Virus record (IMG/VR): IMGVR_UViG_3300037961_006399
Coordinates: 1-29,862 of that record
Length of the DNA stretch: 29,862 nucleotides
Origin: a virus
Strand: one strand, 5' to 3'
Shown: piece by piece, positions 5,280 to 25,636 of the stretch
Numbering within the stretch: position 1 is the stretch's first letter
Layout of the letters: each line of letters opens with the position of its first letter
The notes under the pieces: generated by a model
Databases searched by the model: none
The model's input: only the letters and a program-made list of their open reading frames with translations
What the model was told of the DNA's origin: nothing
Made by a program: the position numbers and the translations under genes

Positions 5280-6006
5280 GACTAGATTTCTCCAAAATAG
5301 AATCGTAAATTTGTTGTTTTAGTTTTGTAGTTGAATAATTGTGTCCTCTATTCAACCAAACGATGTCAATGGGAATCTCTTTCCCAGTGTAAGATCCATC
5401 CATGTAATCATCACCTAAGAACCTAATATCATAGTCCTTGAGGTATTCCAGAAATGTTTCTTCTTTTTGATATACTACAATATCATCAATATATATGATT
5501 GATTTCAGAATCTCTTTTCGTTCTTCTACAGTTTGAACTGGAGTAAGTTTATGAAGTCTTTCTTCTGAAGGGTCATTATGAAGAGCTATTGTCAAATGAT
5601 TGCAATGCCATTTCGCTTCTTTAAACATCCTAATATATCCAGGATGAATAATATCAAATGCACCAGCAACTATTCCTTTTAATTTTGGTTGTGATGCTGC
5701 CCACTTACTTGCTTCAACCCCCTTATCATCAATAAAGATATCGGCATTTGGTTTATGAAACATGGGTTCAAGTTCGTGGTACTTATATCCCCACATTGCC
5801 AACTGATTGCGTGTCAAATCACTATGGTCTATACCAGAACCTCTACCACGAGCAGTCATCATAATAATGTAATGACCTTGATCATATAAGTTATTGACTG
5901 CTCTCACCATCCAGGGGAGAGGAATAGCATTATGATAATCAGGTTTTCCATTTACCTTATTTGGTGTATGACACAGAGTGCCATCAATATCAAAACAATA
6001 TCTCAT
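5272..6006 (-). CDS. HAD phosphatase (EcbF/BcbF-type) fused to a cytidylyltransferase-like domain
   Basis: 244 residues from the ATG at 6006 (ATGA overlap with the upstream SIS gene). Residues 1-105 are a HAD domain: FDIDGTLC (5-12), TARG (51-54), FIDDK (91-95), with the WGxxYHEL pattern of EcbF/BcbF capsule phosphatases. Residues 110-235 resemble glycerol-3-phosphate cytidylyltransferase/HldE-type nucleotidyltransferases: VAGAFDIIHPGY (113-124), a later EERKEILKSI and the C-terminal STTKLKQQI. The usual H-x-G-H is H-P-G-Y, so the second His is Tyr. Neighbours are a SIS isomerase and a GHMP kinase, so it may dephosphorylate and activate a heptose-type sugar. Confidence 0.75.
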   Translation of the reverse strand: MRYCFDIDGTLCHTPNKVNGKPDYHNAIPLPWMVRAVNNLYDQGHYIIMMTARGRGSGIDHSDLTRNQLAMWGYKYHELEPMFHKPNADIFIDDKGVEASKWAASQPKLKGIVAGAFDIIHPGYIRMFKEAKWHCNHLTIALHNDPSEERLHKLTPVQTVEERKEILKSIIYIDDIVVYQKEETFLEYLKDYDIRFLGDDYMDGSYTGKEIPIDIVWLNRGHNYSTTKLKQQIYDSILEKSSHD

Positions 6007-6506
6007 ACAACTCCGTGAAGAAAAATCTGATGAACACATTCTACCACACCATAAGACTCACTGTCTATATGGTAATTAAATACGGCATTTTTAGATCTTG
6101 TTCTTAGTCTATTGTTTCCATAAAATCCTGTAAGAACACCGTAATCAATTTCATTTTCATCACAGTATTTTTGACACTTAATAATGTTCTCAGACTCACC
6201 ACCAGAGCTCATAAGGATAACAAGTGTATCATCCTCCACATGATACTCTAAAAATTTCAGGTATGCATTCTCATATCCAAAGTCGTTAGCAAGCATTGTA
6301 AGCATTGATGGGTCAGAAAAGATGGATACCCTCTTCTTTCCAAACTTCATATAGTCCTGAGAGATGTGTGATGCAACAGAATTACTACCACCATTTCCCA
6401 AGATGATAATTCTTTTATGGTTATCAAATGCTTCCTTAAATTTTTGAAACTCACATTCCATGTGAGCAGATTTAAGAGCATCTACATATTCATTAAATGG
6501 ATTCAC
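6003..6506 (-). CDS. SIS-domain phosphosugar isomerase, GmhA-like
   Basis: 167 residues with the SIS sugar-phosphate motifs GNGGSNSVASH (37-47) and MSSGGESENI (99-108), the pattern and order seen in sedoheptulose-7-phosphate isomerase (GmhA, typically about 190 aa). GmhA converts sedoheptulose 7-phosphate to D-glycero-D-manno-heptose 7-phosphate; sedoheptulose 7-phosphate is abundant in the Calvin cycle of a cyanobacterial host. The start is GTG at 6506 with a strong GAGGGGG Shine-Dalgarno sequence 6-7 nt upstream, overlapping the GHMP kinase by 14 nt. It is slightly short for GmhA, so another SIS isomerase function is possible. Confidence 0.75.
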   Translation of the reverse strand: MNPFNEYVDALKSAHMECEFQKFKEAFDNHKRIIILGNGGSNSVASHISQDYMKFGKKRVSIFSDPSMLTMLANDFGYENAYLKFLEYHVEDDTLVILMSSGGESENIIKCQKYCDENEIDYGVLTGFYGNNRLRTRSKNAVFNYHIDSESYGVVECVHQIFLHGVV

Positions 6507-7440
6507 CCAATACCCCCTCAGACACTACGTCTATTTTAACAGAATCATATGGAAGAGTCAAAGAATTTTTTTCAGAAAATGTTAAAAAGAATCCTCCATT
6601 GCCTGCTCCACATAATTTATGTGCGATAACAGACTGGTCTATTTTAAGGTAATCATCAATCTCCCTAATACGACGATTCTCCGTAATACTAGTAGATGTA
6701 TTCTTCTTTTGAATCCACCCTTCCTTAAAAAGTTTGAAGAATTTTATAAAGTCACAGTTTAAAATTTCCTGATGTGCTTTCTCAACTGTGTCAAGCAGAG
6801 GTTTGATTTTATCTAGATTATCAGTTACATTCTTCAGAACTTTTTTTGAATTCCTAGTTACACCGCTGAAGACAAGATGAACGTCATACCGATTGAAAAT
6901 ATCAGTATTCAAATACTCATATCTAATTCTATCATTCTCTAAGAATTCAATCCTCTTAAAACCACCGATACCACATCCATATGGATCTTGATATCCACAA
7001 TAAGGATTAAATGACAATTCAAGTTCATGTGCCAACTTACAGATAGACTCGGAAGTCATATCTATTTTCTTAAAGATACAGCAAGCTTTGATAAGACTAA
7101 TAATATAAGACGAAGAAGATGCCAACCCACTACCTTGTGAGTAAGCATCACTTGTCAGGGTTACCTGCACTGGAGGCATCTTGAAATATTCAAAAACAAC
7201 TCTAACTACATCATTCTTGATTTCAGAAACACCACCTACCTCTTCTCTACGTGAATAATTGATAATGTATTTGTGTTGGTCTTTGTTAAATCCAAACTTA
7301 TCCTGACTAATTGTCACATAAGTTTTAAGATTGGATGTAAAACTAATTACAGAACCATATCCATATTTCTTGACGAAAAATGGATTGTCAGTAGAACCTC
7401 CAAAAAGAGAAACTCGAAGAGGGCAGGAGGATATAATCAT
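6493..7440 (-). CDS. GHMP-family sugar kinase, HddA-like
   Basis: 315 residues. The N-terminus CPLRVSLFGGSTD (6-18) matches the GHMP motif 1 of D-glycero-D-manno-heptose-7-phosphate kinases. GSGLASSSS (103-111) is the ATP-binding P-loop, and CGAGNGGFF near residue 280 is motif 3. HddA phosphorylates the anomeric carbon to give heptose 1,7-bisphosphate, the step before phosphatase and nucleotidyltransferase. It is immediately followed by the GmhA-like and HAD/nucleotidyltransferase genes, which supports the heptose reading. L-fucose or galactose kinase activity is a less likely alternative. Confidence 0.75.
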   Translation of the reverse strand: MIISSCPLRVSLFGGSTDNPFFVKKYGYGSVISFTSNLKTYVTISQDKFGFNKDQHKYIINYSRREEVGGVSEIKNDVVRVVFEYFKMPPVQVTLTSDAYSQGSGLASSSSYIISLIKACCIFKKIDMTSESICKLAHELELSFNPYCGYQDPYGCGIGGFKRIEFLENDRIRYEYLNTDIFNRYDVHLVFSGVTRNSKKVLKNVTDNLDKIKPLLDTVEKAHQEILNCDFIKFFKLFKEGWIQKKNTSTSITENRRIREIDDYLKIDQSVIAHKLCGAGNGGFFLTFSEKNSLTLPYDSVKIDVVSEGVLGESI

Positions 7441-8090
7441 TAATTAACACGCTCAGGTAAAAACAACTGTTTGATTGGTTGGAAAATTTCAATAGACTGT
7501 TGTTCAGACAACTTATTATATGTTACAGTTTGATTTCCATCAGAACTTGTCTGATAGAAGTATGGATCATCAAATGCATAGACATTAAAGAATCTCATCA
7601 CTTCAGCAACCTGAACATCATAGTAACTCTCAATTTCATATCCAGCAAAACTACATGCCTTTTGTGCCATATCAATCCACTCTTGTGTAAGATATAAAAC
7701 AGCATGTCCACTCAACATGTTTCTAATTCTTACTATATTGTCACCCATGTCTTCATACTGAACACAAGGACCAGAGTGTCCATTCATCCTACCCCATCCA
7801 GAAATACCAAGATAAAAAGCATCTGTGTCATCAGGAATGTCAATTATAGGTTCCCAGTTTTTCAATGCAATGTCATCTTCCAAAAGAACGAATGGCCCTT
7901 TATTTTCTTTCAGAAAGTCAGCAACAGTTATAGCACAACCAGCAAAACCATTACTATGAGAAGTTGCTTCTACTCTAAAATAGTTCTCAATTTCAAGAGA
8001 AGATAGAAGTTTTTCCATCCTCTCTTTTCTTTCAGGTTGTCTGTCTAGGTTGATGTAATAAAAAGGTATTTTTCTAAGATCTAAGTTCAT
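7440..8090 (-). CDS. short GT25-like glycosyltransferase
   Basis: 216 residues, with YYINLDRQPERKERM (11-25) and LLEDDI (69-74) of GT25/LPS glycosyltransferases. It is about 50 residues shorter than the paralogue at 2059-2853 and lacks a clear EVGC-x-x-SH block, keeping only GFAGCAITVADFL in that place. It joins the GHMP kinase by TAATG at 7438-7442 and overlaps the GT6 gene by 17 nt. Probably a cytosolic transferase with altered acceptor handling. Confidence 0.75.
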   Translation of the reverse strand: MNLDLRKIPFYYINLDRQPERKERMEKLLSSLEIENYFRVEATSHSNGFAGCAITVADFLKENKGPFVLLEDDIALKNWEPIIDIPDDTDAFYLGISGWGRMNGHSGPCVQYEDMGDNIVRIRNMLSGHAVLYLTQEWIDMAQKACSFAGYEIESYYDVQVAEVMRFFNVYAFDDPYFYQTSSDGNQTVTYNKLSEQQSIEIFQPIKQLFLPERVN

Positions 8091-8772
8091 TGTGATTTTT
8101 TTTCAAAGCAATAATTTTAGGTTCATAAGGATATTGAGGGTTTCCCATCATTTCCTCAGCAAAACAGTAAGTCGGCGTAAGAGTTACTGTGGGAGGATTA
8201 TCAATCAAATATCGATTCATATGAGACTCATCGTGCCACAAAGCAATAACATCATTTTCAAGGTCTTTGGTTACACGATCTGCAATGACTTCTGCCATTT
8301 CAAGAAATCCTTTGGTACTACCACCATTAAATCCTCCAGCATAATAATACTCACCTTCTTCGCCAGGAGGAACATAAGCAAGACTCTTAGGATTTCTATC
8401 ATATGTTCTATCACTCTTTGGATAAAAAGATTGATAAGGATGCATCGTTGCTACAAGATCACCAAAGACTTCTTCACCAACTTTGTCCACTAAACCCATA
8501 TCCGCATCAAAGTAGTAGCAATAGTCAAACTGAGAAATAAACTCTTTCTCCTTCACGAAGTAATTATACCTCTTTAAGGTAGGCATTGGCCAAGGTTCGT
8601 GCTCAATCTGACTAATCTTTACATTATCAGAAGACTCTTCAATCTCATGGTCTGTAAACAAAAGACATTGAATATCATGTCCTTCCAAAAAATTTTGAGA
8701 AATATTTTCAAGCAATCTATCAATAAATTGAATGTACTTATTTGTTGCTATTGTCAATATACAAATTTTCAT
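8074..8772 (-). CDS. GT6-family glycosyltransferase (ABO / alpha-1,3-galactosyltransferase type)
   Basis: 232 residues with the run of GT6 signatures in the right order: HEPWPMPTLKRYNYF (58-72), FDADM (88-92, the metal-binding site), PKSLAYVPPGEEGEYYYAGGF (about 128-148; its GEYYYAGGF part aligns with the family's YYxGAxFGG), and WHDESHMNRYL (179-189, with the catalytic-site Glu). GT6 includes the human histo-blood-group A and B transferases, which add GalNAc or Gal in alpha-1,3 linkage to a fucosylated acceptor. There is no membrane anchor, as in bacterial GT6. Several alpha-1,2-fucosyltransferases in the same operon make an H-antigen-like acceptor plausible. I recall GT6 relatives in some bacteria and in a marine cyanophage. 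Confidence 0.85.
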   Translation of the reverse strand: MKICILTIATNKYIQFIDRLLENISQNFLEGHDIQCLLFTDHEIEESSDNVKISQIEHEPWPMPTLKRYNYFVKEKEFISQFDYCYYFDADMGLVDKVGEEVFGDLVATMHPYQSFYPKSDRTYDRNPKSLAYVPPGEEGEYYYAGGFNGGSTKGFLEMAEVIADRVTKDLENDVIALWHDESHMNRYLIDNPPTVTLTPTYCFAEEMMGNPQYPYEPKIIALKKNHNELRS

Positions 8773-8773
8773 T

Positions 8774-9406
8774 TCAAATAATTCTCTGATTTACATTCTG
8801 CTTTATATAAAGAGCATCTCCCCAAGTATCTCCATCCCAAGAAACATCGACCCTTTTAAAATTAAACTCTGCTAGGTAGTCATCAATTTCTTCAATATAT
8901 GCATTATTTTCATAAACTTCATCTCTATTAACTTCACAATAAACATAATCAACTTTTTTCAAAGTTTCTTTTCCACCTTTCAATACTTCAAGTTCATATC
9001 CCTGAACATCCATATTCAAAAAATTAAAATCTTGAGTATCAAAATTATCAAGAAGTTTAACTTCTACCGTTTCACGATCATTAAATAAGATATCTTTATA
9101 TTGAGTAAGATGTTTTTTTGGTTTTAGAATAGAACTACTAAGTCCATTATTACTACTTATGTACATCTCAACAGTTTTTTCTTCCGATCCAAGTGCCACT
9201 TGGTGCCCATATATGTTGGCATTTAGATTTTGACAATTTTTTCCAAGAACTTCAAAATTTTTAGACAAAGGTTCAAATACAATAATATTTTTGATGCCCT
9301 CAGAGATGTATTCTCTCATCTCTTCACCAAAGTGTCCACCAACATGAATAATACCTTTTATATCCATGCCGTATTTTTTTCTCATTCCACCAAAACTAAT
9401 CAGCAT
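8774..9406 (-). CDS. FkbM-family methyltransferase
   Basis: 210 residues with the SAM-binding IIHVGGHFGEE (19-29), VFEPLSKN acidic loop (about 44-51), NMDVQGYELEVLKGG (132-146) and a C-terminal YVYCEVNRDE, all typical of FkbM methyltransferases that O-methylate sugars. It overlaps the GT47-like gene by 7 nt and ends 2 nt before the GT6 start. It probably caps or decorates a glycan residue; the methylated hydroxyl cannot be predicted. Confidence 0.85.
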   Translation of the reverse strand: MLISFGGMRKKYGMDIKGIIHVGGHFGEEMREYISEGIKNIIVFEPLSKNFEVLGKNCQNLNANIYGHQVALGSEEKTVEMYISSNNGLSSSILKPKKHLTQYKDILFNDRETVEVKLLDNFDTQDFNFLNMDVQGYELEVLKGGKETLKKVDYVYCEVNRDEVYENNAYIEEIDDYLAEFNFKRVDVSWDGDTWGDALYIKQNVNQRII

Positions 9407-10290
9407 TTTTCAATCCTCTTTGCAATTGTATTTAAACACCCATCCCAAGTAAGATGTTTCTCATAAACTTTTTGACCATAGTCAATCATTTCCTGGTGCT
9501 TTCCAGATTCTAGTATAGCATCTACTCTTTCTGGTATACTATCTATTTCATTTTCATTTACGAGTAAACACATTTTTTCCCACTCAATTTGATCAGTAAA
9601 TGGTAACCAAAATTCGTCCGAAATATAAATGGGAATGCACTGCATTTGTATTGCTTCATACATTCTATATGAAGCTGGTCCAAATCCTCTAGGTGCCAAA
9701 GCAAACACAGAATTGGAGAGTATCTCTCTAAATTTACGGGTTTTAAAATCACCAGATTGATATGAATTCATAAAAAATTCATATCCCTCAAGATTATTGA
9801 GAGAGTCGAACATTTTTTGTCTTATTGGATGAGTTACAATTCCAGCAAATCCAACTTTATTCGTCCTAGTTTCTTTTCCAACAGTAGGATGTGGTTCACA
9901 TAGTAATGGGATAGGTTCATATACAGAATTATTTCCAATCGGAGAATTAAACTTTCCAGATGAACCGAAAATAATTGAATTGTCAATTGGAACTAACGTT
10001 CCCCCATCATATTGAACAATAGTAAAAAACTTTTCGTTTGGATATTTTTGTGTTAAATTGGAACAAAAATCAATCAAAGGTTTTGAATTCAATCCATACT
10101 CTCCACCTGGATTGATGTGCCAAGATGTCCATTGAATTGGAATATAAATGTAGTCAGAGTCTAAATCTTTTTTTGTGGTGAAAAAACTAAAAGCCCTTTC
10201 CTCAATCATTGGATTTGATCCTTGATGTGGAGGATATTGGACTGGCATTTTAGGAAGAAATTCCCTAGGTACATCAACAATGCGTATCAT
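9400..10290 (-). CDS. exostosin-like (GT47-type) glycosyltransferase
   Basis: 296 residues. The C-terminal donor-binding half has SVFALAPRGFGPASYRMYEA (194-213) and CIPIYISDEFWLPF (218-231), matching the exostosin/GT47 pattern in which an Arg and a Glu hold the nucleotide sugar. The N-terminal half carries YIYIPIQWTSWHINPGG. No membrane anchor. It starts by ATGA overlap with the GT2 gene at 10287-10290. Family members add xylose, galactose, glucuronate or GlcNAc; donor unknown here. Confidence 0.8.
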   Translation of the reverse strand: MIRIVDVPREFLPKMPVQYPPHQGSNPMIEERAFSFFTTKKDLDSDYIYIPIQWTSWHINPGGEYGLNSKPLIDFCSNLTQKYPNEKFFTIVQYDGGTLVPIDNSIIFGSSGKFNSPIGNNSVYEPIPLLCEPHPTVGKETRTNKVGFAGIVTHPIRQKMFDSLNNLEGYEFFMNSYQSGDFKTRKFREILSNSVFALAPRGFGPASYRMYEAIQMQCIPIYISDEFWLPFTDQIEWEKMCLLVNENEIDSIPERVDAILESGKHQEMIDYGQKVYEKHLTWDGCLNTIAKRIEKC

Positions 10291-11036
10291 AATTGTTTAA
10301 TTGCAGTTTCATAATAGTTTACAGATGCTTGTGAATTGTTTCCACAAGAGTGCCAATTGCTATCAGATCTAAGTCTATGATTGTGTCTAAGTCCTTCAAC
10401 TATTTTAACCTTTCCACCACTCTTTAACCAATAGTAAAAAACAGCAGCAGTGTCAGCATGTAGTAAAGGTGTTTCAACATTTTCATAAGGTTCTTTCAAA
10501 ACCTCAGTATATCTATCTTTATTAACAATATAGTTGCCAGAATTTACTAACCAACCAAACCATTCAATATTACCCAGGATACATTTCTTACTTTCCTCAA
10601 TACCAATTAAATCATATCCAAAATTATAATCAGATACAACTTCAAAGTCATTAGCACCATCATGCTTACAACAGAGATGTTGTGGAGAATAAAAAATATT
10701 AGGATCGCTATCTGGTATTCCTCTCATGAGTTGATAACTTTCTTCAAATGGATAATTATCACTATCTAATAGATATACCCATTCATTGGAACAGTTTTTT
10801 ACTGTCTGGTACTTATTTCTAAATGCGCCTACATTTTTAGTATTGGAAAATAACTTTATCTTTTTAGAGTTAATATTTTCTATTTTACTTTTAAATGTTT
10901 GAAAATGTTCTGGAGATGAACAATCATCATTAACAACAATTTCATCAATAAAATCATCATCTAAAGCATATTTTATACAATCATCAAAATATTGAGATGT
11001 ATTGTATGTTGGAAGAGCAAGACTAATTTTTTTCAT
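10287..11036 (-). CDS. GT2-family glycosyltransferase
   Basis: 249 residues with an N-terminal GT2 GT-A core: SLALPTYNTSQYFDDCI (5-21), EIVVNDDCS (32-40) and the DxD region VYLLDSDNYPF (87-97). The C-terminal half (GLRHNHRLRSDSNWHS) is of the kind that binds acceptors. No membrane segment, so it is not a processive synthase. It starts at TAATG shared with the RmlD-like gene at 11036 and ends by ATGA overlap with the GT47-like gene. Confidence 0.85.
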   Translation of the reverse strand: MKKISLALPTYNTSQYFDDCIKYALDDDFIDEIVVNDDCSSPEHFQTFKSKIENINSKKIKLFSNTKNVGAFRNKYQTVKNCSNEWVYLLDSDNYPFEESYQLMRGIPDSDPNIFYSPQHLCCKHDGANDFEVVSDYNFGYDLIGIEESKKCILGNIEWFGWLVNSGNYIVNKDRYTEVLKEPYENVETPLLHADTAAVFYYWLKSGGKVKIVEGLRHNHRLRSDSNWHSCGNNSQASVNYYETAIKQL

Positions 11037-11812
11037 TATGAAATATTAAAAGAGTACATTTCCAATAGTTGTTGTTCAACTGTCAAATCCACAGGACGCC
11101 CATAAATTGTTTTCAAACTTCTATCACAATAATCAACCATCACCGGATTTATTTTGTTGTTCAAATTATATATCTGATTAATAAATGAGGTCAATTGATA
11201 TTTACTAACAGTATCCTTAGAGTGATAGTGTCTTACACCATCCCAATATGATTTTGAATTAATAATTGAAACTATTTCTTTAGTCAATTGTAAACATGTC
11301 AATCCATTCCAAAAATGGTTCAAGTATCCGTTTATAGTTGTATTCTTATTGGTTTTTACCCATTCAACCAAAGATTTTTTATTCAGTAGTTCTTCACCTA
11401 TAATTGATGTGCGAATTACAGTTACATTATTTGGCTCTCCCAAAGATTTACTTTTGCCATAATCATCAAGACAATCATGAACACTAAGTTCTGTATATGA
11501 TCCTTCTTTACCACTAAAAACACAATCTGTAGTAACATGAATTACATGACACTTGAGAGAAGACAGAAAATGTGGAAACAATGAATTAACTCTAATCAAT
11601 TCATTTGCAGTATATGATCTTTGCTTAATAACTCCTGCAGCGTTCACAATAACATCATCATCATTAAAACAATACTTATCGGTGATGTTGTTAAAGTCTT
11701 CTAATAAATCAACATCTTTTCTTGTAATAGGAACTACATCAAGAAAAGAACTCATATACTTTGTAAGGTATCTTCCCAACATTCCATTGGCACCAAAAAT
11801 GTAAACTTTCAT
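11036..11812 (-). CDS. RmlD-like nucleotide-sugar 4-ketoreductase
   Basis: 258-residue SDR of the RmlD substrate-binding family: FGANGMLGRYL (6-16), IVNAAGVIKQ (about 55-64), HVTTDCVFSG (about 92-101) and the YGKSKSLGE catalytic block. RmlD reduces dTDP-4-keto-rhamnose; relatives such as WbvR reduce the UDP-linked 4-keto amino sugar made by a WbjB-type enzyme. The WbjB-like gene lies three genes upstream and no RmlABC is visible, so the UDP-amino-sugar route is preferred. It lacks the C-terminal cupin of WbjC/CapF, judging from its length. Confidence 0.75.
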   Translation of the reverse strand: MKVYIFGANGMLGRYLTKYMSSFLDVVPITRKDVDLLEDFNNITDKYCFNDDDVIVNAAGVIKQRSYTANELIRVNSLFPHFLSSLKCHVIHVTTDCVFSGKEGSYTELSVHDCLDDYGKSKSLGEPNNVTVIRTSIIGEELLNKKSLVEWVKTNKNTTINGYLNHFWNGLTCLQLTKEIVSIINSKSYWDGVRHYHSKDTVSKYQLTSFINQIYNLNNKINPVMVDYCDRSLKTIYGRPVDLTVEQQLLEMYSFNIS

Positions 11813-11814
11813 AA

Positions 11815-12489
11815 TTATTTGTAAGTAGATTTAATTAAGTAGAGAATAGTATCGTCCTTACATCTCACAAAAGCATTTGGGTATGGATCTTGTAAGGATC
11901 TAATTTTATCAAAAAGTTCTTTTGATGTATAGTTAGAAAAGTCTTCTAACTTTATTTCACTCATATATTTTTTTCTTCTTTTAAAATAAGAGGATTTAGA
12001 ATTGTCTTGGTCAATAAGATTTAAAGATAAATTTTTCAAATCTTTTTCGATAATTTTTGTACACCCCTCTACACCAATACTTATAATTTTTTCAAAAACT
12101 TCATACAAATCACAATCTTCAATACCAAATTGTCTTTGAAATACTATTGGTCCAGTATCAATTCCAGTATCCATCAAAAATAAAGTAACGCCACTAATAG
12201 TTTCCCCATTTATAATCTGATGCTGTATTGGACTTCCGCCCCTATACTTTGGCAATAGAGATGGATGCAAACATATACATCTATTAGAATTTACTATAGA
12301 TTCGTCTACTATACTACTCCAACCTATAAAAAAAATTAAATCATATTTGTAGTTTGATATTAAATATGAAAATTTGTTATCAGTATTGCAAACGGAAAAT
12401 ACAACATCTTCAGTTTTAAACTTCTCTTGAATTTGAACACATATTGAATCAGACCATTCTCTATATGAGCATAGTAAAATGCTTTTCAT
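11815..12489 (-). CDS. formyltransferase-fold protein with altered catalytic Asn
   Basis: 224 residues of the formyl_trans_N type used by Fmt, ArnA and sugar N-formyltransferases: LHPSLLPKYRGGSPIQ (74-89) and GVTLFLMDTGIDTGPIV (100-116). His75 and the Asp in GIDTG (111) are present. The catalytic Asn two residues before the His is Cys73 (codon TGT) where NxH is expected. The C-terminal part may recognise the sugar. It follows the PIG-L deacetylase with TAATG coupling at 12487-12491, fitting removal of acetyl followed by addition of formyl from N10-formyl-THF. Activity is uncertain because of the Asn change. Confidence 0.75.
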   Translation of the reverse strand: MKSILLCSYREWSDSICVQIQEKFKTEDVVFSVCNTDNKFSYLISNYKYDLIFFIGWSSIVDESIVNSNRCICLHPSLLPKYRGGSPIQHQIINGETISGVTLFLMDTGIDTGPIVFQRQFGIEDCDLYEVFEKIISIGVEGCTKIIEKDLKNLSLNLIDQDNSKSSYFKRRKKYMSEIKLEDFSNYTSKELFDKIRSLQDPYPNAFVRCKDDTILYLIKSTYK

Positions 12490-13112
12490 TAATCAACCCA
12501 TCTAATAATTTGAAACGATTCTGCACTCGGCATGTTGGATTGAAATCCTCTCAAATAAGCCATCTGTCTTAGAGTATCAGGACCTCTATGTCCCCTGACC
12601 TGTGATTTTAGGAAGTTATATGAAAAAACTTTATCGTCAATATCTAATGGAGAGAAGTAATTTGGTTTAAAAGAACTATTGAGATCATGAGTACAATCCC
12701 ACAAAAAACTGTGAACTTCTTCATAAACTAAAACTTTTTTAACGAAAAAGTTGATGTCATGATGACGAAGAGCAACTAATGCTGCATCATAAACTGCAAT
12801 GTGATCTTGATTATAGGATGGATAAGGAATAAAAACTTTATCGGGTTTAACCTTATTAATTTGCTCTTCAAAAATAGGTATCAAATCTTGCATTACATAG
12901 TTGTTTACCTTGTTCTCAAGATATACATCGTAACTAAATCCACAGTGATCGGAAAGATTTTTTAATTCTTGCAATCTTTCCTCTCTACTCACCACATGAA
13001 ATACATCAACACCACACTCAACAACGTGAGCATCTTCATTCAAAAAACTGAAGCATCCCAATAACTCATCATCAACATGAGGAGATATTACTAGTGTTTT
13101 TTTAGTGGTCAT
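12489..13112 (-). CDS. PIG-L/LmbE-family de-N-acetylase
   Basis: 207 residues with the zinc-binding PHVDDELLG motif (11-19; H12, D14, D15) and YNQDHIAVYDAALVAL (about 110-125), the second metal/His motif of PIG-L deacetylases. The family removes the acetyl group from GlcNAc-type sugars, here probably a nucleotide- or glycan-linked N-acetyl sugar. It lies 3 nt after the WbjB-like gene and directly before the formyltransferase-like gene. The P-H-x-D-D-E core has Val where Pro is most common. Confidence 0.85.
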   Translation of the reverse strand: MTTKKTLVISPHVDDELLGCFSFLNEDAHVVECGVDVFHVVSREERLQELKNLSDHCGFSYDVYLENKVNNYVMQDLIPIFEEQINKVKPDKVFIPYPSYNQDHIAVYDAALVALRHHDINFFVKKVLVYEEVHSFLWDCTHDLNSSFKPNYFSPLDIDDKVFSYNFLKSQVRGHRGPDTLRQMAYLRGFQSNMPSAESFQIIRWVD

Positions 13113-13115
13113 AAT

Positions 13116-14045
13116 TTAAGGTTTAAAAAAGTTTTTTTCTTTCAAGATTGAATATAGCATGTTTTTGTCAATAACACAATCTTCTGAAGAGTATTGATTA
13201 TTTGGAAAACTTACTTCATCGTAAATATTCGTTTGATGCATCAGATAATGATCATTAAATTTTTTCATTCTCGCAACTTCATCTTGAGATGCCATTATCT
13301 CATGTATTTTTTCACAACTCCTTGGTTGTGAAACATCATACTTCAATCCAAACTCTTCTTTAAAGATTTCAAAAAGATCAGAGACTTTCATACTATGTAA
13401 AATGGGAATTACATTATATCCATCAGTTTTAAGTCCAATCTCAATTAAATTAATAGCATCATCAACATTGATAAAAAATCTAGTCATCTCTTCACCATAC
13501 AAGGACAAACTAAACCCCTCCTTTATACTATGCCACATCAAAGGAATGATGCTACCAGTACTATTCAAAACATTCCCATAAACTGCCGTGCTCAGTCTAA
13601 CATCACTTTTACTAGAATTTGAAATAAACGATTCACCTGCAACATATTTCATTGCACCATATATTGTAGTTGCAGATCTGCTTTTATCACTTGAAATAAA
13701 ACATGATGACTCAAACTCATTTTCCTCAGAGCACCTCCTACTATTAAAGGCACCATTAACAATCACCTGATTTGCTTCTTCATAGTTATCATGACAAGCT
13801 TGAATCTGTTTAAATGAAGCAGTAAAAATTCCAACATCATGATTTTTACTGGCACGTTTCATTAAATCATAATTCCTAACATCACCACAAATACATTCCA
13901 AATTTGGATACTTTTTCTTTAGATGATATTGCTTTGATTCATCTCTAGAATAAACCGTGATATGATTTTTATCATAAAATCTCTTAATTATTGACCGTCC
14001 AAGAAAACCAGTTCCTCCTGTCAAGAATATTTTTTTGTTTTCCAT
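13116..14045 (-). CDS. PseB/WbjB-type UDP-GlcNAc 4,6-dehydratase (with or without 5-epimerase)
   Basis: 309-residue SDR of the polysaccharide biosynthesis CapD/FlaA1 group: TGGTGFLGRSI (9-19), VYSRDESKQ (31-39), CGDVRNYDL, ASFKQIQACHDN, SSDKSRSATTIYGAMK (about 118-133, with the Tyr-x3-Lys pair) and RFFINVDDA. In PseB and WbjB the same positions read TDKA and YGATK. Those enzymes make UDP-4-keto-6-deoxy-HexNAc; the RmlD-like reductase downstream could finish a UDP-L-RhaNAc-type sugar. Sub-type is inferred from context. Confidence 0.75.
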   Translation of the reverse strand: MENKKIFLTGGTGFLGRSIIKRFYDKNHITVYSRDESKQYHLKKKYPNLECICGDVRNYDLMKRASKNHDVGIFTASFKQIQACHDNYEEANQVIVNGAFNSRRCSEENEFESSCFISSDKSRSATTIYGAMKYVAGESFISNSSKSDVRLSTAVYGNVLNSTGSIIPLMWHSIKEGFSLSLYGEEMTRFFINVDDAINLIEIGLKTDGYNVIPILHSMKVSDLFEIFKEEFGLKYDVSQPRSCEKIHEIMASQDEVARMKKFNDHYLMHQTNIYDEVSFPNNQYSSEDCVIDKNMLYSILKEKNFFKP

Positions 14046-14057
14046 AATTAAAATTAA

Positions 14058-14810
14058 TCAATATCCTTTAATAATTGGACGATTTCCAAACATAGAAGAC
14101 GCAGAAGGTCCAGACCCTGGCCTATCTGTTTGGTTATACATATATCCTAGCACAGAATCATCCCATTTTTTCCAAGAGTTTCTAATATCATCTCTTCTTT
14201 CACCAATCATCGAGTCCCATTTATCATACTTTGGTTCTGGGCAATTTTTAATAACACGATCTCCAAGATGTGAATATTTTCTAGACCATCTTGGTTCAGA
14301 TTCATCACATCCAGGAGGGCCATTCAATGGAGATTTTGGATACACTTTGCAATGCATATCATAATTACCCTCTAAACTTTCATATATGCACAAATCATTA
14401 TACTTGTGTCTATATACCCAATCTCTATCTTCCCATCCACCCAAATAGAACTCTTCATCAAACCAACCAATAGTTCTAATAAGTTCTTTGGAAAATGCCA
14501 TGAATGCACTATTAAAAATATACACTGTTGCATACCCATTTTCAAGAAGATTGAGTGTCTTTTCAACTTCTTCAACAGTAGGAAATAATCTATCATTCAT
14601 TAAAACAATCCATTCAGTTGGAGAAGTTGCAACAGCATGATTTACCAACTCAGAGAATGATGGATACATACCAGGATGTCTATCAATTCTATTATTCCAA
14701 TGAACTTTATATTTTTCTTCTAGAGGTTTTAATAAACCCATCTGATTGTCAACGATAGATCTATCATATCCACAATGCAAAGATATTGTGAATTCATCAA
14801 TCTTAATCAT
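14058..14810 (-). CDS. GT2-like glycosyltransferase
   Basis: 250 residues. EWIVLMNDRLFP (about 66-77) takes the place of the GT-A DxD strand and WFDEEFYLGGWEDRDWVYR (about 115-133) is the conserved acceptor/base block (F-x-GWEDxD) of GT2- and galactosyltransferase-like enzymes. The C-terminus is Gly/Ser-rich with no membrane helix. It is preceded by a 38-nt spacer, the longest gap inside the operon. Confidence 0.75.
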   Translation of the reverse strand: MIKIDEFTISLHCGYDRSIVDNQMGLLKPLEEKYKVHWNNRIDRHPGMYPSFSELVNHAVATSPTEWIVLMNDRLFPTVEEVEKTLNLLENGYATVYIFNSAFMAFSKELIRTIGWFDEEFYLGGWEDRDWVYRHKYNDLCIYESLEGNYDMHCKVYPKSPLNGPPGCDESEPRWSRKYSHLGDRVIKNCPEPKYDKWDSMIGERRDDIRNSWKKWDDSVLGYMYNQTDRPGSGPSASSMFGNRPIIKGY

Positions 14811-14848
14811 AAATTTTTCTCAAAACAATTTTTTTACTGAATTATATA

Positions 14849-15586
14849 TCATACATAAATGTATCTATCTTCATCATCAACAATTACATCTATATCATTT
14901 CCATCTTTACGATGTTGCCAATATTTTTTAGAAGTTCTTGGGTAATATATTCTAGTTGCATCAGACAACCAAGCAGCCCACCACGAATATGACGATTGAG
15001 ATATTGCTATGTGTTTATAAGATGCAATATCAACAAAGTCTTGCCATTCACTATTAGATACAACTTTACAATTAAACACATCTTTTATTTCAGATATAAA
15101 AGAGTGATTTGGTTCATCGGTATAGATGACTGGAACTTTTTTAGAATCCTTTATTACATCGATATAATATTCAACTGGAAGATTATTATTGTCTCTATAA
15201 TATTCCCCCAACCTAATATGAACTGCAATTAAGTCATCATCATATAGAGATCCATTTTTTTCAAAAGAGTATATTTTTTTCACATACTCTTTATAATTTT
15301 TTATATTTTCATAGACTTGATAATATCCATGAATACATATCATCCCTTTATGTTTAGATAATTTATCATAATCCATTTGCCAAATATCAGAACAAATGAT
15401 TGGATTATCTTGAATGATTATATTATTATTTTCACCCAAATTAGATTCATAAAAATTTCCTGGTTTTTTTGCATTTAAAAAATACTTTGTCTTTTTAGAT
15501 AAAATCCTACAACATGCGTATTGGAAAAGGTGATTTCCAAATCCAGAATTTATATCAGACTGTCCTCGGTATTGCAAATTAATCAT
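14849..15586 (-). CDS. GT11 alpha-1,2-fucosyltransferase-like (copy 1 of tandem pair)
   Basis: 245 residues with GFGNHLFQYA (15-24, family G-x-GNQxFQYA), VHIRLGEY (122-129, the GDP-fucose-binding HxRxGDY motif) and SQSSYSWWAAWLSDA (about 195-209, the family SxFSWWxAWL). GT11 enzymes add L-fucose in alpha-1,2 linkage to galactose. Copy 2 lies 8 nt upstream; both end in the same ten residues (VDDEDRYIYV) and share exact DNA repeats, so they arose by duplication. Asp to Glu in the HxRxGDY motif (GEY) is shared by both copies. Confidence 0.85.
   Translation of the reverse strand: MINLQYRGQSDINSGFGNHLFQYACCRILSKKTKYFLNAKKPGNFYESNLGENNNIIIQDNPIICSDIWQMDYDKLSKHKGMICIHGYYQVYENIKNYKEYVKKIYSFEKNGSLYDDDLIAVHIRLGEYYRDNNNLPVEYYIDVIKDSKKVPVIYTDEPNHSFISEIKDVFNCKVVSNSEWQDFVDIASYKHIAISQSSYSWWAAWLSDATRIYYPRTSKKYWQHRKDGNDIDVIVDDEDRYIYV
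14853..14875. repeat. 23-nt repeat at the 3' ends of the tandem GT11 genes, copy 1
   Basis: Identical to 15599-15621. It encodes the shared C-terminus of the two GT11 paralogues. Confidence 0.9.
14955..14991. repeat. 37-nt exact repeat in GT11 genes, copy 1
   Basis: Identical to 15695-15731. It encodes the conserved SYSWWAAWLSDAT region of both genes. The near-perfect DNA identity over the active-site block, against diverged flanks, fits recent duplication or gene conversion. Confidence 0.9.
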
Positions 15587-15594
15587 AATATCTG

Positions 15595-16347
15595 TTAAAC
15601 ATAAATGTATCTATCTTCATCGTCAACGGTAAAGTCTATATCATTACCATTGTGACTCCAATAATTTTTATATGAAAGGGGATAATAAATTGTCGTTGCA
15701 TCAGACAACCAAGCAGCCCACCACGAATATGTAGATTGAGATATAATAATATGTTTATGAGATGCCATTTTTACAAAATCATCCCACTGTGTAGGAGATT
15801 TTGATTCTACCCAAGTTTTATCAGAAGAAGAAATGTCACAATCAACTAAAGATTCTATTTCTTGAACATATGGATGTGTAGGTTGATCTGTGTAAATAAT
15901 TGCTTTCTTTTTAGACTTTCTAATACAATCTACATAATATTCTTTTGGCAATTGATTGTTATGCCTACAATACTCACCAAGTCTAATGTGAACTGCTATT
16001 AAATTATCATCATAAAGATTTTTATCTTTTTCAAAAGAATAAAGATTTTTTACATATTCTTTATGGTATTTTATATTAGAGTATCTTTGAAAGTATCCAT
16101 AAAAGTGTATTAATCCCTTATGCTTTGAAATACTATCATAATCAATACTCCACACATCACCACCAATCATCATTTCATTATTACTATATCTAATATCATT
16201 ATTCTCTGGAGGATTAAGATCTATAAATTTACCTTCAATAGGAGGTACTCCATCCAAAAAATATTTTGTTTTATTAGATAAAATCCTCGCTACAGCATAT
16301 TGCATCATCTGATTGGCAAGGTATCCACCATAACTAAGTTTTATCAT
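15595..16347 (-). CDS. GT11 alpha-1,2-fucosyltransferase-like (copy 2 of tandem pair)
   Basis: 250 residues. GGYLANQMMQYAVARIL (7-23) is a weakened G-x-GNQxFQYA loop, VHIRLGEY is at 119-126 and SQSTYSWWAAWLSDA at about 205-219. Compared with copy 1 the middle (a segment around TWVESKSPTQWDD) is about ten residues longer and the N-terminal loop differs. Acceptor specificity may therefore differ while the donor site is kept. TAATG coupling with the GT34-like gene at 16347. Confidence 0.85.
   Translation of the reverse strand: MIKLSYGGYLANQMMQYAVARILSNKTKYFLDGVPPIEGKFIDLNPPENNDIRYSNNEMMIGGDVWSIDYDSISKHKGLIHFYGYFQRYSNIKYHKEYVKNLYSFEKDKNLYDDNLIAVHIRLGEYCRHNNQLPKEYYVDCIRKSKKKAIIYTDQPTHPYVQEIESLVDCDISSSDKTWVESKSPTQWDDFVKMASHKHIIISQSTYSWWAAWLSDATTIYYPLSYKNYWSHNGNDIDFTVDDEDRYIYV
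15599..15621. repeat. 23-nt repeat at the 3' ends of the tandem GT11 genes, copy 2
   Basis: Identical to 14853-14875, at the 3' end of the second GT11 gene. Confidence 0.9.
15695..15731. repeat. 37-nt exact repeat in GT11 genes, copy 2
   Basis: Identical to 14955-14991, 740 nt away, in the same reading frame of the paralogue. Confidence 0.9.
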
Positions 16348-17093
16348 TAATAATCATTCCTCCAGGGTTGACCGCCAGCAAAGTGGCGAATGATGACATC
16401 CTTTCGTTCTACCTGATTAATATTAAACGTACATCCAGATTCACCAGGCATCTCAGTCACGTTCCAGCATGTAGGTAACACCTCAACGTGTTTATACAAC
16501 TCTTCTAAAGAGTATACCGTCCATTCATCTTTATCAGAATGCCAACCATAATGTGCAAGATTGTAAAATGGAATATTAGAATGTCTTTTTATACCAGCCA
16601 AAGAATACCAGGATGCTTGTTCTCTGAATATACTCCAAAAACTATCTCTGTGACCAAAGTATTCATGAAGAGTAATCTTATCCTTTAAATTCTGATACCT
16701 ATTTTCATCAAGAAGATGATCAAGCATATTTTTAGACCATTCATTAACTTTGATGGAATAATTTCCCATACAATGAGTATTTCCAGAATCAATACAATAG
16801 GTAAATGATTTATTAGAAGGATAATCAACATTCAGTTTATGAATACACATATCAGCATCAATATGTGTTAGGGTATCTCCTTCTTTCAAAGTTCCATCAT
16901 TTATAAGATCTCTAACAATAGTAAACTTCCACCAAGTTGGATGATCTCTAAACGGTTTATAAGGACCAAGATATTCCAAATATTCATAACCATGAATATC
17001 ACAATACTCCCTATTCCTAGGAGAAAAATTAGTTTTAAAAAATTCTTGCCTCTGATCTGGGTAATTTGCAATTACCATTAAGTATTTTTTCAT
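16347..17093 (-). CDS. GT34-like GT-A glycosyltransferase
   Basis: 248 residues. The pattern N-R-x-Y-C-x-x-HGYEYLEY (about 27-40), HPTWWKFTIVRDLI (about 51-64) and THIDADMCIHK (about 76-86, DxD) resembles GT34 (GMA12/MNN10) galactosyl/xylosyltransferases. The C-terminal IIRHFAGGQPWR would carry the last metal ligand His. No signal anchor, unlike eukaryotic GT34. It sits between two pairs of GT11 genes, so it may supply the hexose that is fucosylated. Family call is tentative. Confidence 0.65.
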   Translation of the reverse strand: MKKYLMVIANYPDQRQEFFKTNFSPRNREYCDIHGYEYLEYLGPYKPFRDHPTWWKFTIVRDLINDGTLKEGDTLTHIDADMCIHKLNVDYPSNKSFTYCIDSGNTHCMGNYSIKVNEWSKNMLDHLLDENRYQNLKDKITLHEYFGHRDSFWSIFREQASWYSLAGIKRHSNIPFYNLAHYGWHSDKDEWTVYSLEELYKHVEVLPTCWNVTEMPGESGCTFNINQVERKDVIIRHFAGGQPWRNDY

Positions 17094-17899
17094 TTTAAAA
17101 AAGTAAAATTACCAAACTTTAATCCATCTACATTTTTATGTATATTGTCAGAACCAACCCAATTACTTGGCGCTATAACTTTTTTACTTTTAGATAACCA
17201 TGCACCCCACCAAGAAAATGATGAATTAGCGATAATATGATATGTACAAAGTGATTGCAAACAAAGATCTACTCCACTATTGTTATCTTCAACAAAAATA
17301 AATCTATCTTGGTCAAACATTTTTTGATTTTTACACCAATCAATATCGTCAGAAAAAATCATGACGGTAAGTTCTTGTGGCAAAAGATCTAAAGATTTTT
17401 TATAAAAATCAATACTAGCTAAAGGATGATGATTTTGAAGTTGCACATAATCTGTTCTGCGAATATGAAGAGAAATTACTTCAGAATTGTCAAAATTTTC
17501 TCTAAACGCATCTTCAGTTGGTTCTATAATTTCATCTACAAAGGTAAATGCATTTCTTATATCTTTCTCAATGTGTTTAAAATATTTTTCTGTTTGAAAA
17601 TACCCCATCAAACTAATATTATCTGGACACCTATCCCACAACAGTTCATCTAAATTGTAACTAGTTCTTTCCATTACTTTTGGAAAATTTGTTATGTTTC
17701 TGGGAGCATCAGGTATGTTAAAGCATTCAAACATAGTAATGTCAGAATTTTTAACCTTATCGTCTTTTGTACCGATTACCTCTTCTGGGGGAAGACAATA
17801 ATCATAACCATGCTTTTGTGCCAATCCTCTTAAAGATGCATACTGGAACATTTGGTTACCAAGTCTCCCCAGATTTCCTAAATCGTCATTTGCAATCAT
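17090..17899 (-). CDS. GT11 alpha-1,2-fucosyltransferase
   Basis: 269 residues, the most canonical GT11 here: GRLGNQMFQYASLRGLA (11-27), HIRRTDYV (145-152) and NSSFSWWGAWLSKSKKV (about 218-234), with length close to bacterial FutB/WbsJ-type enzymes. It uses GDP-L-fucose, which gmd plus fcl can make. It ends by ATGA overlap with the GT34-like gene. Confidence 0.9.
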   Translation of the reverse strand: MIANDDLGNLGRLGNQMFQYASLRGLAQKHGYDYCLPPEEVIGTKDDKVKNSDITMFECFNIPDAPRNITNFPKVMERTSYNLDELLWDRCPDNISLMGYFQTEKYFKHIEKDIRNAFTFVDEIIEPTEDAFRENFDNSEVISLHIRRTDYVQLQNHHPLASIDFYKKSLDLLPQELTVMIFSDDIDWCKNQKMFDQDRFIFVEDNNSGVDLCLQSLCTYHIIANSSFSWWGAWLSKSKKVIAPSNWVGSDNIHKNVDGLKFGNFTFLK

Positions 17900-17906
17900 C
17901 TGTAAA

Positions 17907-18698
17907 TTAAATTATTTTCCAATGAGAAAGGTACAAGTCATCAGTATTGTGATTTATACAATCTCCAGCAAACCATTTCTTTGGAGCTACAACATTTTGA
18001 CTATTTGCCAACCAAGCACCCCACCAACTAAAAGTACTATTACAAATTACATGATACTTACATTTACTCATAATATAAAGATCATAATATGCATTATCAG
18101 TTTCTGAAATAATAAATCTATCATCAGAAAATATGTCTTGTTGTTTTGCCCACTCAATATCATCAGTAAAAACAAGAACTGGAATATCTGTAGGAAACTC
18201 ACCCAGACCGTCAATATAGTATTGATTATCCTGAACGGGATGATTTGGATTTTTTAGAAAATCATTTCTCCTAATATGAATAGCAATCGAATCTTTATAT
18301 TGATCAACTATATCAGAACAATCGTCTTGTATTTCTTTTTTAAATACAAAGTCATTGGTTCTCAATTCATCCTCTATATTTTTAAAATATTTTTCAGATT
18401 GAAAAAATCCAACAAGATTGTAATCTCCATTTGATAGAGCCTCTACTAATTCACTATCATAATGAAAAAATCTTTCATTGACATTTGTATATGATGATAT
18501 TCCACGATAACATTTTATATCAAAAGCTTCATCGATATTACTAAAAAGATTTTGATAATAATGCTTACCAAAAATATTACTTGGAGGAATACAATATTCA
18601 GTATTATATTTTTTTGCAAATGCCTTAACAACAGAATACTGAAACATCTGGTTCCCCAGATGTCCATTATTTCCCAGATGATTGATAGAAAAACTCAT
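17907..18698 (-). CDS. GT11 alpha-1,2-fucosyltransferase
   Basis: 263 residues with NGHLGNQMFQYSVVKAFA (11-28), HIRRNDFL (141-148; Tyr of the usual DY is Phe) and NSTFSWWGAWLANSQNVV (about 215-232). It is clearly related to the GT11 at 17090-17899 and more distant from the tandem pair at 14849-16347. Starts by ATGA overlap with the ColD-like gene. Likely a cytosolic transferase with GDP-fucose as donor. Confidence 0.9.
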   Translation of the reverse strand: MSFSINHLGNNGHLGNQMFQYSVVKAFAKKYNTEYCIPPSNIFGKHYYQNLFSNIDEAFDIKCYRGISSYTNVNERFFHYDSELVEALSNGDYNLVGFFQSEKYFKNIEDELRTNDFVFKKEIQDDCSDIVDQYKDSIAIHIRRNDFLKNPNHPVQDNQYYIDGLGEFPTDIPVLVFTDDIEWAKQQDIFSDDRFIISETDNAYYDLYIMSKCKYHVICNSTFSWWGAWLANSQNVVAPKKWFAGDCINHNTDDLYLSHWKII

Positions 18699-19858
18699 AG
18701 TAAAGAAAGAATATCACTAAGTAAATTTATTTCTTGTTCTCCAATGAAATGATTATTTCCTAGGTAAATTCCATTGTAGTGGACAAGATCTACATTAAGT
18801 TCTTTTTTACTAGTAGTTATAGAATAATCTTTTAGGAATGGTTGTTTAAGCAAATTTCCACCAATAATAGGACGGTGTTCAATACCATTTTGATCAAAGA
18901 CTTTTCTCAACCTATGAGCATATCTAACGTCCTTACAAATAATTGGGAAGCAAAAATTACTCACTCCCTCGTGATACTTAGGTACATAGAATAAGTTTGG
19001 ATACTTTTCCATCAAAGAAATAAACATTGAATAATTTTTATTTCTTTTCTCAATATATGAATCAAGTCTGTTTAATTGAGATAGTCCAAGAACTGCACTA
19101 AGTTCATCATTTCTAAAATTATATCCATCAGTAACAAATAAAAATTGTTTAGAAATATCTGGATACATCTCTTTATATCGATCAAACATTTCAGATTCTC
19201 TTGCAAGACCATGAGAACGTTTGATTCTCATCAAATCATAAAGTTCATAATTGTTGGTAGAAACTATTCCACCTTCAATTGTAGACATATGATGTCCAAA
19301 ATAAAAACTAAAGGTTGCTCCAATACTATCAGATCCTACTTTAGATCCATCGGCATTTTTACATCCATGAGACTCGCATACATCATCAATAATTAAAGCA
19401 TTTGGAAATAGTTCAGAATACTTACTGTTATTTGCAGGAAATCCTATCAAATGTGTTGTAAAAATTAATTTAATATCTGGATGTTCTTTTGCAATGTACT
19501 GCAAATCTTCTTCGCAGAAACTAAAATTATCTAAGTTAATATCACAAAAGATTGGTGTAAATCCTAACTGAATAACTGGACCAATATTTGTTACCCAAGT
19601 ATCTGCCGGTACTAATACCTTGTCGCCATCTTTTAAACCATAATATTCTTTTACGGATGCAAGTAAAAGATAATTCGCGGTACTTCCAGAGGAAACAAAT
19701 AGTGAGTGTTTACAACCCAACCACTCTGACCATTCTTTTTCAAAACTTCTAACTTTCCTACCATTAGTAAAACGATCAGAAGTTAATACAAACTTTGCTA
19801 GATTATATCTGTCACCTAGAGTGACATTGTTTTTCATTAACGGCCATTTATAGTTCAT
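18695..19858 (-). CDS. ColD-like GDP-4-keto-6-deoxymannose 3-dehydratase (DegT/DnrJ fold)
   Basis: 387 residues from the ATG at 19858, chosen for its AGGTGG Shine-Dalgarno sequence 7 nt upstream; a longer frame to 19891 would overlap fcl more. PLP-fold signatures are SSGSTANYLLLAS (56-68), DDVCESHG (158-165, the Asp that binds the pyridine) and ATFSFYFGHHMSTIEGG (181-197). His189/190 stand where aminotransferases have the Schiff-base Lys. That exchange defines ColD and E1/RfbH dehydratases (ColD active-site His188, about 388 aa, from memory). It lies directly after gmd and fcl, whose intermediate is the ColD substrate. A GDP-perosamine synthase is unlikely without the Lys. Confidence 0.75.
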   Translation of the reverse strand: MNYKWPLMKNNVTLGDRYNLAKFVLTSDRFTNGRKVRSFEKEWSEWLGCKHSLFVSSGSTANYLLLASVKEYYGLKDGDKVLVPADTWVTNIGPVIQLGFTPIFCDINLDNFSFCEEDLQYIAKEHPDIKLIFTTHLIGFPANNSKYSELFPNALIIDDVCESHGCKNADGSKVGSDSIGATFSFYFGHHMSTIEGGIVSTNNYELYDLMRIKRSHGLARESEMFDRYKEMYPDISKQFLFVTDGYNFRNDELSAVLGLSQLNRLDSYIEKRNKNYSMFISLMEKYPNLFYVPKYHEGVSNFCFPIICKDVRYAHRLRKVFDQNGIEHRPIIGGNLLKQPFLKDYSITTSKKELNVDLVHYNGIYLGNNHFIGEQEINLLSDILSLL

Positions 19859-23843: not shown

Positions 23844-24176
23844 TTAGTCAACCCTCCCATAATTATCTTTAAGTCTTACAATATCTTCTTCCTTACACTT
23901 ACCAACTTGAGTTTCAATAATCACAAGTTCTTCTTCAGCAGTAATTCTATGAACTGTTCTGATTGGTATCACTACAGTTTTTCCTGGAAATAGTGATCCT
24001 TCTGTTCTGCCAAGGACATATTCACCAATACCAGAAACAACAACCCAACTTTCCAATCTATGATTATGGTATTGCAAAGAAATAGACTGACCATCGTGAA
24101 TGACCAGCCTCTTAACTTTATATTTTGGTTCATCAACTATAACTTCAAAAGATCCCCACGGTTTTTCAATCTTCAT
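23844..24176 (-). CDS. mannose-6-phosphate isomerase type II cupin domain
   Basis: 110 residues forming one cupin: KPWGSFEVIVDEPKYKVKRL, GQSISLQYHNHRLESWVVVSG (about 28-48, metal-binding H-x-H and E), PGKTVVIPIRTVHRI (about 64-78, the third His) and the C-terminal EEDIVRLKDNYGR. It matches the C-terminal isomerase domain of ManC-type bifunctional enzymes without the guanylyltransferase domain. It would supply mannose 6-phosphate from fructose 6-phosphate for GDP-mannose, feeding gmd. It is separated from the sugar operon by about 2 kb. Confidence 0.85.
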   Translation of the reverse strand: MKIEKPWGSFEVIVDEPKYKVKRLVIHDGQSISLQYHNHRLESWVVVSGIGEYVLGRTEGSLFPGKTVVIPIRTVHRITAEEELVIIETQVGKCKEEDIVRLKDNYGRVD

Positions 24177-25076: not shown

Positions 25077-25101
25077 AAAAAAAGGGGTGCCGTCGCACCC
25101 C
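25077..25101 (-). terminator. intrinsic terminator after the barrel-like gene
   Basis: On the minus strand GGGGTGC-GACG-GCACCCC (7-bp stem, 4-nt loop) followed by TTTTTTT. It is 31 nt past the stop of the 121-aa gene. Confidence 0.9.
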
Positions 25102-25131
25102 AGTATAACATCTAGATGGTTAGTTGTAAAC

Positions 25132-25611: not shown

Positions 25612-25636
25612 CGGAAAACTTTTTAGGGTTTACCGA

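Follow-up and report, generated by a model that had tools for sequence, protein, structure and literature searches.

The deacetylation of a sugar followed by re-acylation of its amine is already known in principle. In lipid A synthesis, LpxC deacetylates a derivative of uridine diphosphate (UDP)-N-acetylglucosamine (UDP-GlcNAc) and LpxD then N-acylates the freed amine; in Nod factor synthesis, the CE4 deacetylase NodB precedes the N-acyltransferase NodA, and the pair uses a chito-oligosaccharide and adds a fatty acid. The sugar formyltransferases WbtJ, VioF and WbkC retain a catalytic Asn, which we also read in ArnA. Their amine is supplied by an aminotransferase, as for the N-formyl sugar of Francisella, on which WbtI acts before WbtJ (excerpts of PMC10924466). 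Formyl on a GlcNAc-derived nitrogen occurs in 5-N-formyl-legionaminic acid of Halorubrum PV6, which is also carried by a virus glycoprotein; excerpts of PMC6137143 propose a formyltransferase gene and name no deacetylase. Here we analyse a 29,862-base IMG/VR virus record (IMGVR_UViG_3300037961_006399; ‘the window’ denotes this whole stretch), in which four consecutive genes probably form a phage module for N-acyl exchange that is joined to a pathway for a 6-deoxy-amino sugar. This version of the principle, which joins a PIG-L deacetylase to a formyltransferase-fold protein lacking the Asn, appears to be new: titles and abstract openings in the Creative Commons-licensed PubMed Central literature yielded no description of a deacetylase and formyltransferase pair, and term searches of PMC7439481, PMC10059132 and PMC7725333 returned nothing on it.

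Four genes in a cyanophage-like fragment

The window is a cyanophage-like fragment. Positions 24000–29862 match cyanophages that we take to be T4-like (612 records matched, 366 of them Synechococcus phages). An earlier note, made from the letters alone, had read four of its genes as a PseB/WbjB-type dehydratase, a PIG-L deacetylase, a formyltransferase-like protein and an RmlD-like reductase that might exchange acetyl for formyl on a UDP-6-deoxy-N-acetylhexosamine. Open reading frames (ORFs), Pfam and NCBIfam models and key residues confirm four consecutive, intact ORFs with ATG starts, running from 14045 to 11036 within a run of 25 genes:

13116–14045, minus strand: PseB-like UDP-GlcNAc 4,6-dehydratase/C5-epimerase, a short-chain dehydrogenase/reductase (SDR) of 309 amino acids (Pfam Polysacc_synt_2, E 8.7e-40)
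12489–13112, minus strand: PIG-L/LmbE-type zinc N-deacetylase, 207 amino acids (Pfam PIG-L, E 6.2e-06)
11815–12489, minus strand: formyltransferase-fold protein, 224 amino acids, with Cys73 at the catalytic Asn site (Pfam Formyl_trans_N, E 2.7e-19)
11036–11812, minus strand: RmlD-like 4-keto-sugar reductase, an SDR of 258 amino acids (Pfam RmlD_sub_bind, E 1.1e-14)

The spacings are 3, −1 and 2 nucleotides (nt), and the next gene, for a glycosyltransferase (10287–11036), overlaps the RmlD-like gene by 1 nt. The gene set is not a chance arrangement, because the nearest viral relative (a single contig, loci L001 and L146; 83% identity over the deacetylase and 70% over the formyltransferase) and many further contigs retain two pairs, PIG-L with formyltransferase and PseB with RmlD.

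The dehydratase is PseB-like and not of the WbjB/CapE type that the earlier label had joined to it: the PseB model gives 167.6 bits and FnlA (WbjB/CapE type) 106.9, both well under the equivalog cut-offs (407.75 bits for PseB in NCBIfam). It carries GGTGFLG, matching GGTGxxG, and a D120-K121...Y129...K133 active site, and its best solved relatives are the UDP-GlcNAc-type dehydratase 4tqg, the closest (E 9.5e-36), and the UDP-GlcNAc C6 dehydratase 2gn4 (E 2.7e-30). We take 4tqg to be a Megavirus chilensis protein; its pathway reportedly differs from that of the window in having an N-acetyl sugar product and a C2-epimerase. The reductase assignment holds, with an RmlD_sub_bind score of 54.6 bits (gathering threshold 27), a YxxxK motif (YGKSK; Y118 and K122) and a profile match to 2ggs (E 1.1e-22), although the NCBIfam dTDP-4-dehydrorhamnose reductase model gives 55.8 bits against a cut-off of 224.05.

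The PIG-L protein falls narrowly short of the Pfam gathering threshold (PF02585, 27.2 against 28.2 bits), yet its assignment stands on fold and residues. H12, D14, D15 and H104 (PHxDD plus a distal His), which presumably have the zinc and base roles of their counterparts in MshB and BshB, are invariant across 15 relatives. We modelled this protein and the formyltransferase with AlphaFold2 from alignments that combined window and viral sequences. The PIG-L model (predicted local distance difference test score (pLDDT) 89.1) has the LmbE fold; the closest folds are BshB (6ull; Z 23.3, 2.1 Å, 192 residues aligned) and diacetylchitobiose deacetylase (8bgn; Z 21.9, 2.6 Å, 191 aligned), which differ in acting on other GlcNAc substrates with no formyl step.

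The formyltransferase-fold protein scores 70 bits with Formyl_trans_N (gathering threshold 26.1), and its model (pLDDT 90.2) is closest to 1zgh (Z 23.6, 2.1 Å, 211 aligned). It matches ArnA (5j63; Z 20.9, 2.4 Å, 213 aligned) over the full chain, VioF (4yfv; Z 20.1, 2.8 Å, 216 aligned) and many sugar formyltransferases at Z 18–21. The whole-chain fold, the HPSLLP motif and the His and Asp are shared with WbtJ, VioF, WbkC and ArnA. H75, S77 and D111 are present, H75 and D111 being invariant in 16 relatives; the label ‘formyltransferase-like’ thus survives for the fold and for His, Ser and Asp, but not for the catalytic Asn. From the modelled fold and these three residues, we infer that the added group would be formyl.

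In the scheme that we propose, including its UDP level, step order, stereochemistry and glycan, the PseB-like enzyme would dehydrate UDP-GlcNAc with inversion at C5 and the RmlD-like enzyme would reduce the 4-keto group to give a UDP-2-acetamido-2,6-dideoxy-hexose. The PIG-L enzyme would take the N-acetyl group off the GlcNAc-derived nitrogen, the formyltransferase-fold enzyme would formylate the freed amine from N10-formyl-tetrahydrofolate (formyl-THF), and neighbouring glycosyltransferases would pass the 2-formamido sugar to a surface or virion glycan.

Deacetylase and acyl enzyme occur as a pair

A profile scan of viral contigs with the formyltransferase returned 43 loci (numbered with the prefix L), reduced to 41 by dropping partial formyltransferase matches (L183 and L184). 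In 39 of these, the formyltransferase gene directly adjoins one for a deacetylase, of the PIG-L type in 35 and of an unrelated NodB/CE4 type in 4 (L164, L167, L168 and L171; polysaccharide deacetylase PF01522, 28.8 to 44.4 bits, gathering threshold 23.1); in the other 2 (L163 and L181), left out of the adjacency count, the formyltransferase lies at a contig end. This replacement of PIG-L by a CE4 relative recalls NodB/NodA. A scan with the NodB-type protein found an adjacent formyltransferase in 9/9 loci (4 known contigs and 5 new ones, 3 of the latter alike). In these NodB-type proteins, TFDDG and a single later His are retained; the second His of what we take to be the usual CE4 metal site was not recognised.

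The other half of the pair is also replaced. In 47 viral loci found by a PIG-L profile scan, which share contigs with the 41 and, like them, include near-identical ones, the formyltransferase is adjacent in 34, and an LpxD-like hexapeptide N-acyltransferase lies within 132 nt in 6 (L126, L127, L132, L134, L135 and L137, including two near-identical pairs); none of the 47 has both. The LpxD-like enzyme, recognised by LpxD models, and the order of the chemistry recall LpxC/LpxD, from which the window differs in having a PIG-L rather than an LpxC fold, a formyltransferase fold and a 6-deoxy sugar. That both halves are replaced by families of the same chemistry speaks most strongly for deacetylation and subsequent re-acylation, and these comparisons support the deacetylase and formyltransferase as one predicted functional pair. 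In the phage contigs with PIG-L beside the LpxD-like enzyme (L126, L132, L134 and L137), a longer-chain N-acyl exchange is possible.

The cellular scan gave 76 loci, one of which (L074, PIG-L adjacent) runs off its contig end and was dropped. PIG-L is adjacent in 14 of the 19 loci scoring at least 200 bits, 13 by script and L039 by eye because its stop-to-stop frames overlap past the script limit. L032 has a weak CE4-like neighbour (20.9 bits, under gathering), and L026, L033, L034 and L040 have no deacetylase neighbour. The 56 weaker relatives have Asn at the site in 38 cases and an adjacent PIG-L in none; we rejected a housekeeping Fmt reading on the latter count. A C-methyltransferase-like gene (Methyltransf_13/14; Pfam on L033 only) lies directly upstream in L033, L034 and L040.

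For the tree, 67 representatives were chosen at 90% identity, and 65 were kept after removal of two at contig edges; their neighbour is PIG-L in 52, NodB in 8, another CE4 protein in 1 and no deacetylase in 4. On well-supported branches the tree needs two or more exchanges between NodB and PIG-L, in one direction or the other, although the bootstrap had not fully converged.

The pairs recur in many viral contigs, but we saw no close relative of the cassette in sequenced isolates. Within the phage collection, a similar set appears only in the uncultured 634-kb LR745206, with PseB–NodB–formyltransferase and a more distant RmlD; its formyltransferase is diverged, has Gly at the Asn site and is placed outside the family by the tree. 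PIG-L matches in Escherichia and Vibrio phages have no recognised formyltransferase in the stretches examined, and plasmid matches (283 records) are all below 60% identity. Among 296 sampled genomes of one phylum, the sole match at E 1e-40 was the centre genome itself, so the cassette is rare in that phylum.

Source of the amine

The premise that N-formyl sugars normally arise by an aminotransferase plus a formyltransferase agrees with WbtI and WbtJ. We found no sugar aminotransferase in the window, and its sole DegT protein is of the His type:

18695–19891, minus strand: DegT-family protein with His replacing the pyridoxal phosphate lysine, a ColD-like 3-dehydratase rather than an aminotransferase (FGHHMSTIEGG motif; ColD match)

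Its best solved relative is ColD (2gms, E 1.6e-50). An aminotransferase route through this gene was rejected on the replaced lysine, and the window has no lysine-type ArnB sugar aminotransferase of the kind used in the ArnA/ArnD cycle. DegT proteins near the viral family members are also His-type in 4/4 readable cases (L154, L155, L156 and L171; L169 is unreadable). The only Asn-bearing family member, in cellular locus L026, has no deacetylase neighbour and adjoins an apparent true aminotransferase, and in 10 of the 56 weaker cellular relatives the locus includes a DegT gene, always in the lysine form. The absence of an aminotransferase is clear for viral loci only, because lysine-type DegT genes lie within 10 kb of the cellular family members L028, L032 and L036, and the motif of the L031 DegT gene is unread. 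The claim that a deacetylase here exposes the amine instead of an aminotransferase gains from the conserved pair and from the lack of an aminotransferase in the window, within the bounds of a fragment. In L026 (10720–12903), a 728-amino-acid protein in which an epimerase is fused to a lysine-type DegT domain stands beside the Asn-bearing formyltransferase.

Alternative explanations

Several observations weigh against N-acyl exchange by formylation. The main evidence against ordinary formyl transfer, as predicted from sequence, is the missing Asn: Cys73 sits where ArnA has Asn, breaking the catalytic Asn-x-His...Asp pattern, and in the 65 representatives the site holds Asn in 1, Cys in 39, Met in 15, Ile in 4, Gly in 3, Val in 2 and Ala in 1 (four of them read by eye). 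Excerpts of PMC4388273 describe this Asn as crucial in FMT, ArnA and GART and report Ile in FDH, a formyl-THF hydrolase. Neither acyl enzyme accompanies PIG-L in 7 of the 47 loci (L139–L145), and the cellular members without a deacetylase neighbour in L033, L034 and L040 are from Pelagibacteraceae. An aminotransferase may lie elsewhere in the phage or host, the window being only a fragment. The RmlD-like gene adjoins the PseB-like gene in many viral contigs (80 of 109 RmlD-type loci were examined), often without the swap genes. The link to the substrate is for that reason looser than that between deacetylase and formyltransferase; in the 41 viral formyltransferase loci, a PseB-like match occurs in 34, some of them weak and perhaps other SDR enzymes, and an RmlD-like match in 24. 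The occurrence of PseB–RmlD alone is in keeping with editing as an optional addition to a basic pathway for 6-deoxy sugars.

If the Asn-less fold moved another one-carbon group or hydrolysed formyl-THF like FDH, the final sugar would not be N-formyl. The replacement of Asn in 64 of the 65 representatives, the Ile of FDH and the Val at this site in 1zgh point that way; we nevertheless consider it quite improbable, because the site retains its His, Ser and Asp, the whole chain matches sugar formyltransferases and LpxD-like N-acyltransferases stand in its place, a sign that an acyl group passes to an amine. HypX has the same fold with an altered catalytic triad (excerpts of PMC6802093). A PurN-type auxiliary metabolic gene is hardly credible and was rejected: phrog_9240 (E 1.8e-22), the best PHROG match, is a cyanobacterial phosphoribosylglycinamide formyltransferase, and such genes are annotated in the cyanophages P-SSM5, P-SSM7 and S-SKS1, but the window protein scores higher with the Fmt (99 bits) and ArnA (88 bits) models than with PurN (54.6 bits), the PurN match is confined to residues 36–133 and the protein falls in the clade tied to deacetylases. 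We judge it unlikely that the exchange takes place away from the UDP-sugar stage, with a polyprenyl-linked glycan, a finished one, or a nonulosonic acid (free or activated with cytidine monophosphate, CMP) as its substrate. CE4/NodB enzymes usually act on oligosaccharides, a NeuB-like synthase is nearby in 7/41 viral and 9/19 cellular family loci (NeuA in 4/19 cellular), and cellular locus L027 has the order PseB, RmlD, NeuB, glycosyltransferase, PIG-L, formyltransferase, NeuA. Domain and family profile scans of the 25-gene run in the window detected neither NeuB nor NeuA, however, so the product here is more likely a hexosamine; the LpxD-like replacement also resembles an enzyme whose substrate is a UDP-sugar, and all four window proteins look cytosolic from their folds. 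A conventional N-formyl sugar, with the aminotransferase outside the window and PIG-L acting on another target or as a deformylase as in the ArnA/ArnD cycle, is improbable, a shade more so than a non-formylating enzyme. In its favour are the WbtI/WbtJ precedent and the size of the fragment, which at 29.9 kb probably covers little of a T4-like genome; on the other side, a deacetylase from either of two unrelated families is adjacent in 39/39 assessable viral loci, and nearby viral DegT proteins are His-type, whereas the Asn-bearing L026 has a lysine-type DegT and no deacetylase.

N-acyl exchange on a 6-deoxy-amino sugar remains our preferred reading. Of the earlier proposal, the pairing of deacetylase with acyl enzyme stands, each of them being replaced by analogues elsewhere; the formyl identity, the UDP-6-deoxy-N-acetylhexosamine substrate and the step order stay conditional. 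There is perhaps an even chance of a wider arrangement, in which viruses and some cells have a modular N-acyl editing cassette for 6-deoxy-amino sugars, with an interchangeable deacetylase slot (PIG-L or CE4) and acyl slot (the Asn-less formyltransferase clade or an LpxD-like enzyme), the GlcNAc-derived nitrogen being re-acylated without an aminotransferase and, in that clade, by a modified Asn-less active site.

The surrounding glycan genes

The four genes lie among other sugar genes:

2059–21753, minus strand: 25 genes in one direction, most of them for glycans (encoding glycosyltransferases or serving heptose and GDP-sugar synthesis), from ORFs and domain and family profiles
19848–21753, minus strand: Fcl/ColC-like and Gmd genes, for guanosine diphosphate (GDP)-sugar supply within the same cluster, from family models

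The GDP-L-fucose synthase model scores 470 bits (cut-off 500) and gmd 560.7 (cut-off 415). Together with the ColD-like His-type DegT gene, these genes (18695–21753) suggest that a 3,6-dideoxy sugar such as GDP-colitose could be made by the phage, in addition to GDP-fucose or in its place. His-type DegT proteins resembling RfbH and ColD turn up repeatedly in the glycan clusters of phages (L154, 6173–7489; L171, 4998–6308). A HAD-like plus nucleotidyltransferase protein, a GmhA-like isomerase and an HddA-like kinase (window 5272–7440) are likely to represent a heptose-nucleotide pathway, and four GT11-type, fucosyltransferase-like genes (14849–18698) in two similar-looking adjoining pairs suggest tandem duplication.

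Cellular loci in which NeuB accompanies the PIG-L and formyltransferase pair (L027, 2247–8080, an operon without an aminotransferase gene; also L028–L031, with L029 from the cultured Flavivirga rizhaonensis, L035–L037 and L050) are candidate producers of a trideoxy, fusaminic-like nonulosonic acid bearing N5-formyl and 7-hydroxy groups; fusaminic acid is defined in excerpts of PMC7371886.

Significance

If correct, this reading would provide a route to N-formyl sugars that needs no aminotransferase and places formyl on the GlcNAc-derived nitrogen, and would explain a possible origin of sugars such as 5-N-formyl nonulosonic acids. PIG-L or CE4 adjoining this formyltransferase clade would be a gene signature by which such glycans could be located. 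The reading also raises the mechanistic question of how a site lacking the conserved Asn could transfer formyl. The cassette suggests phage editing of the small acyl groups that glycans carry, with possible effects on receptor or antigen recognition.

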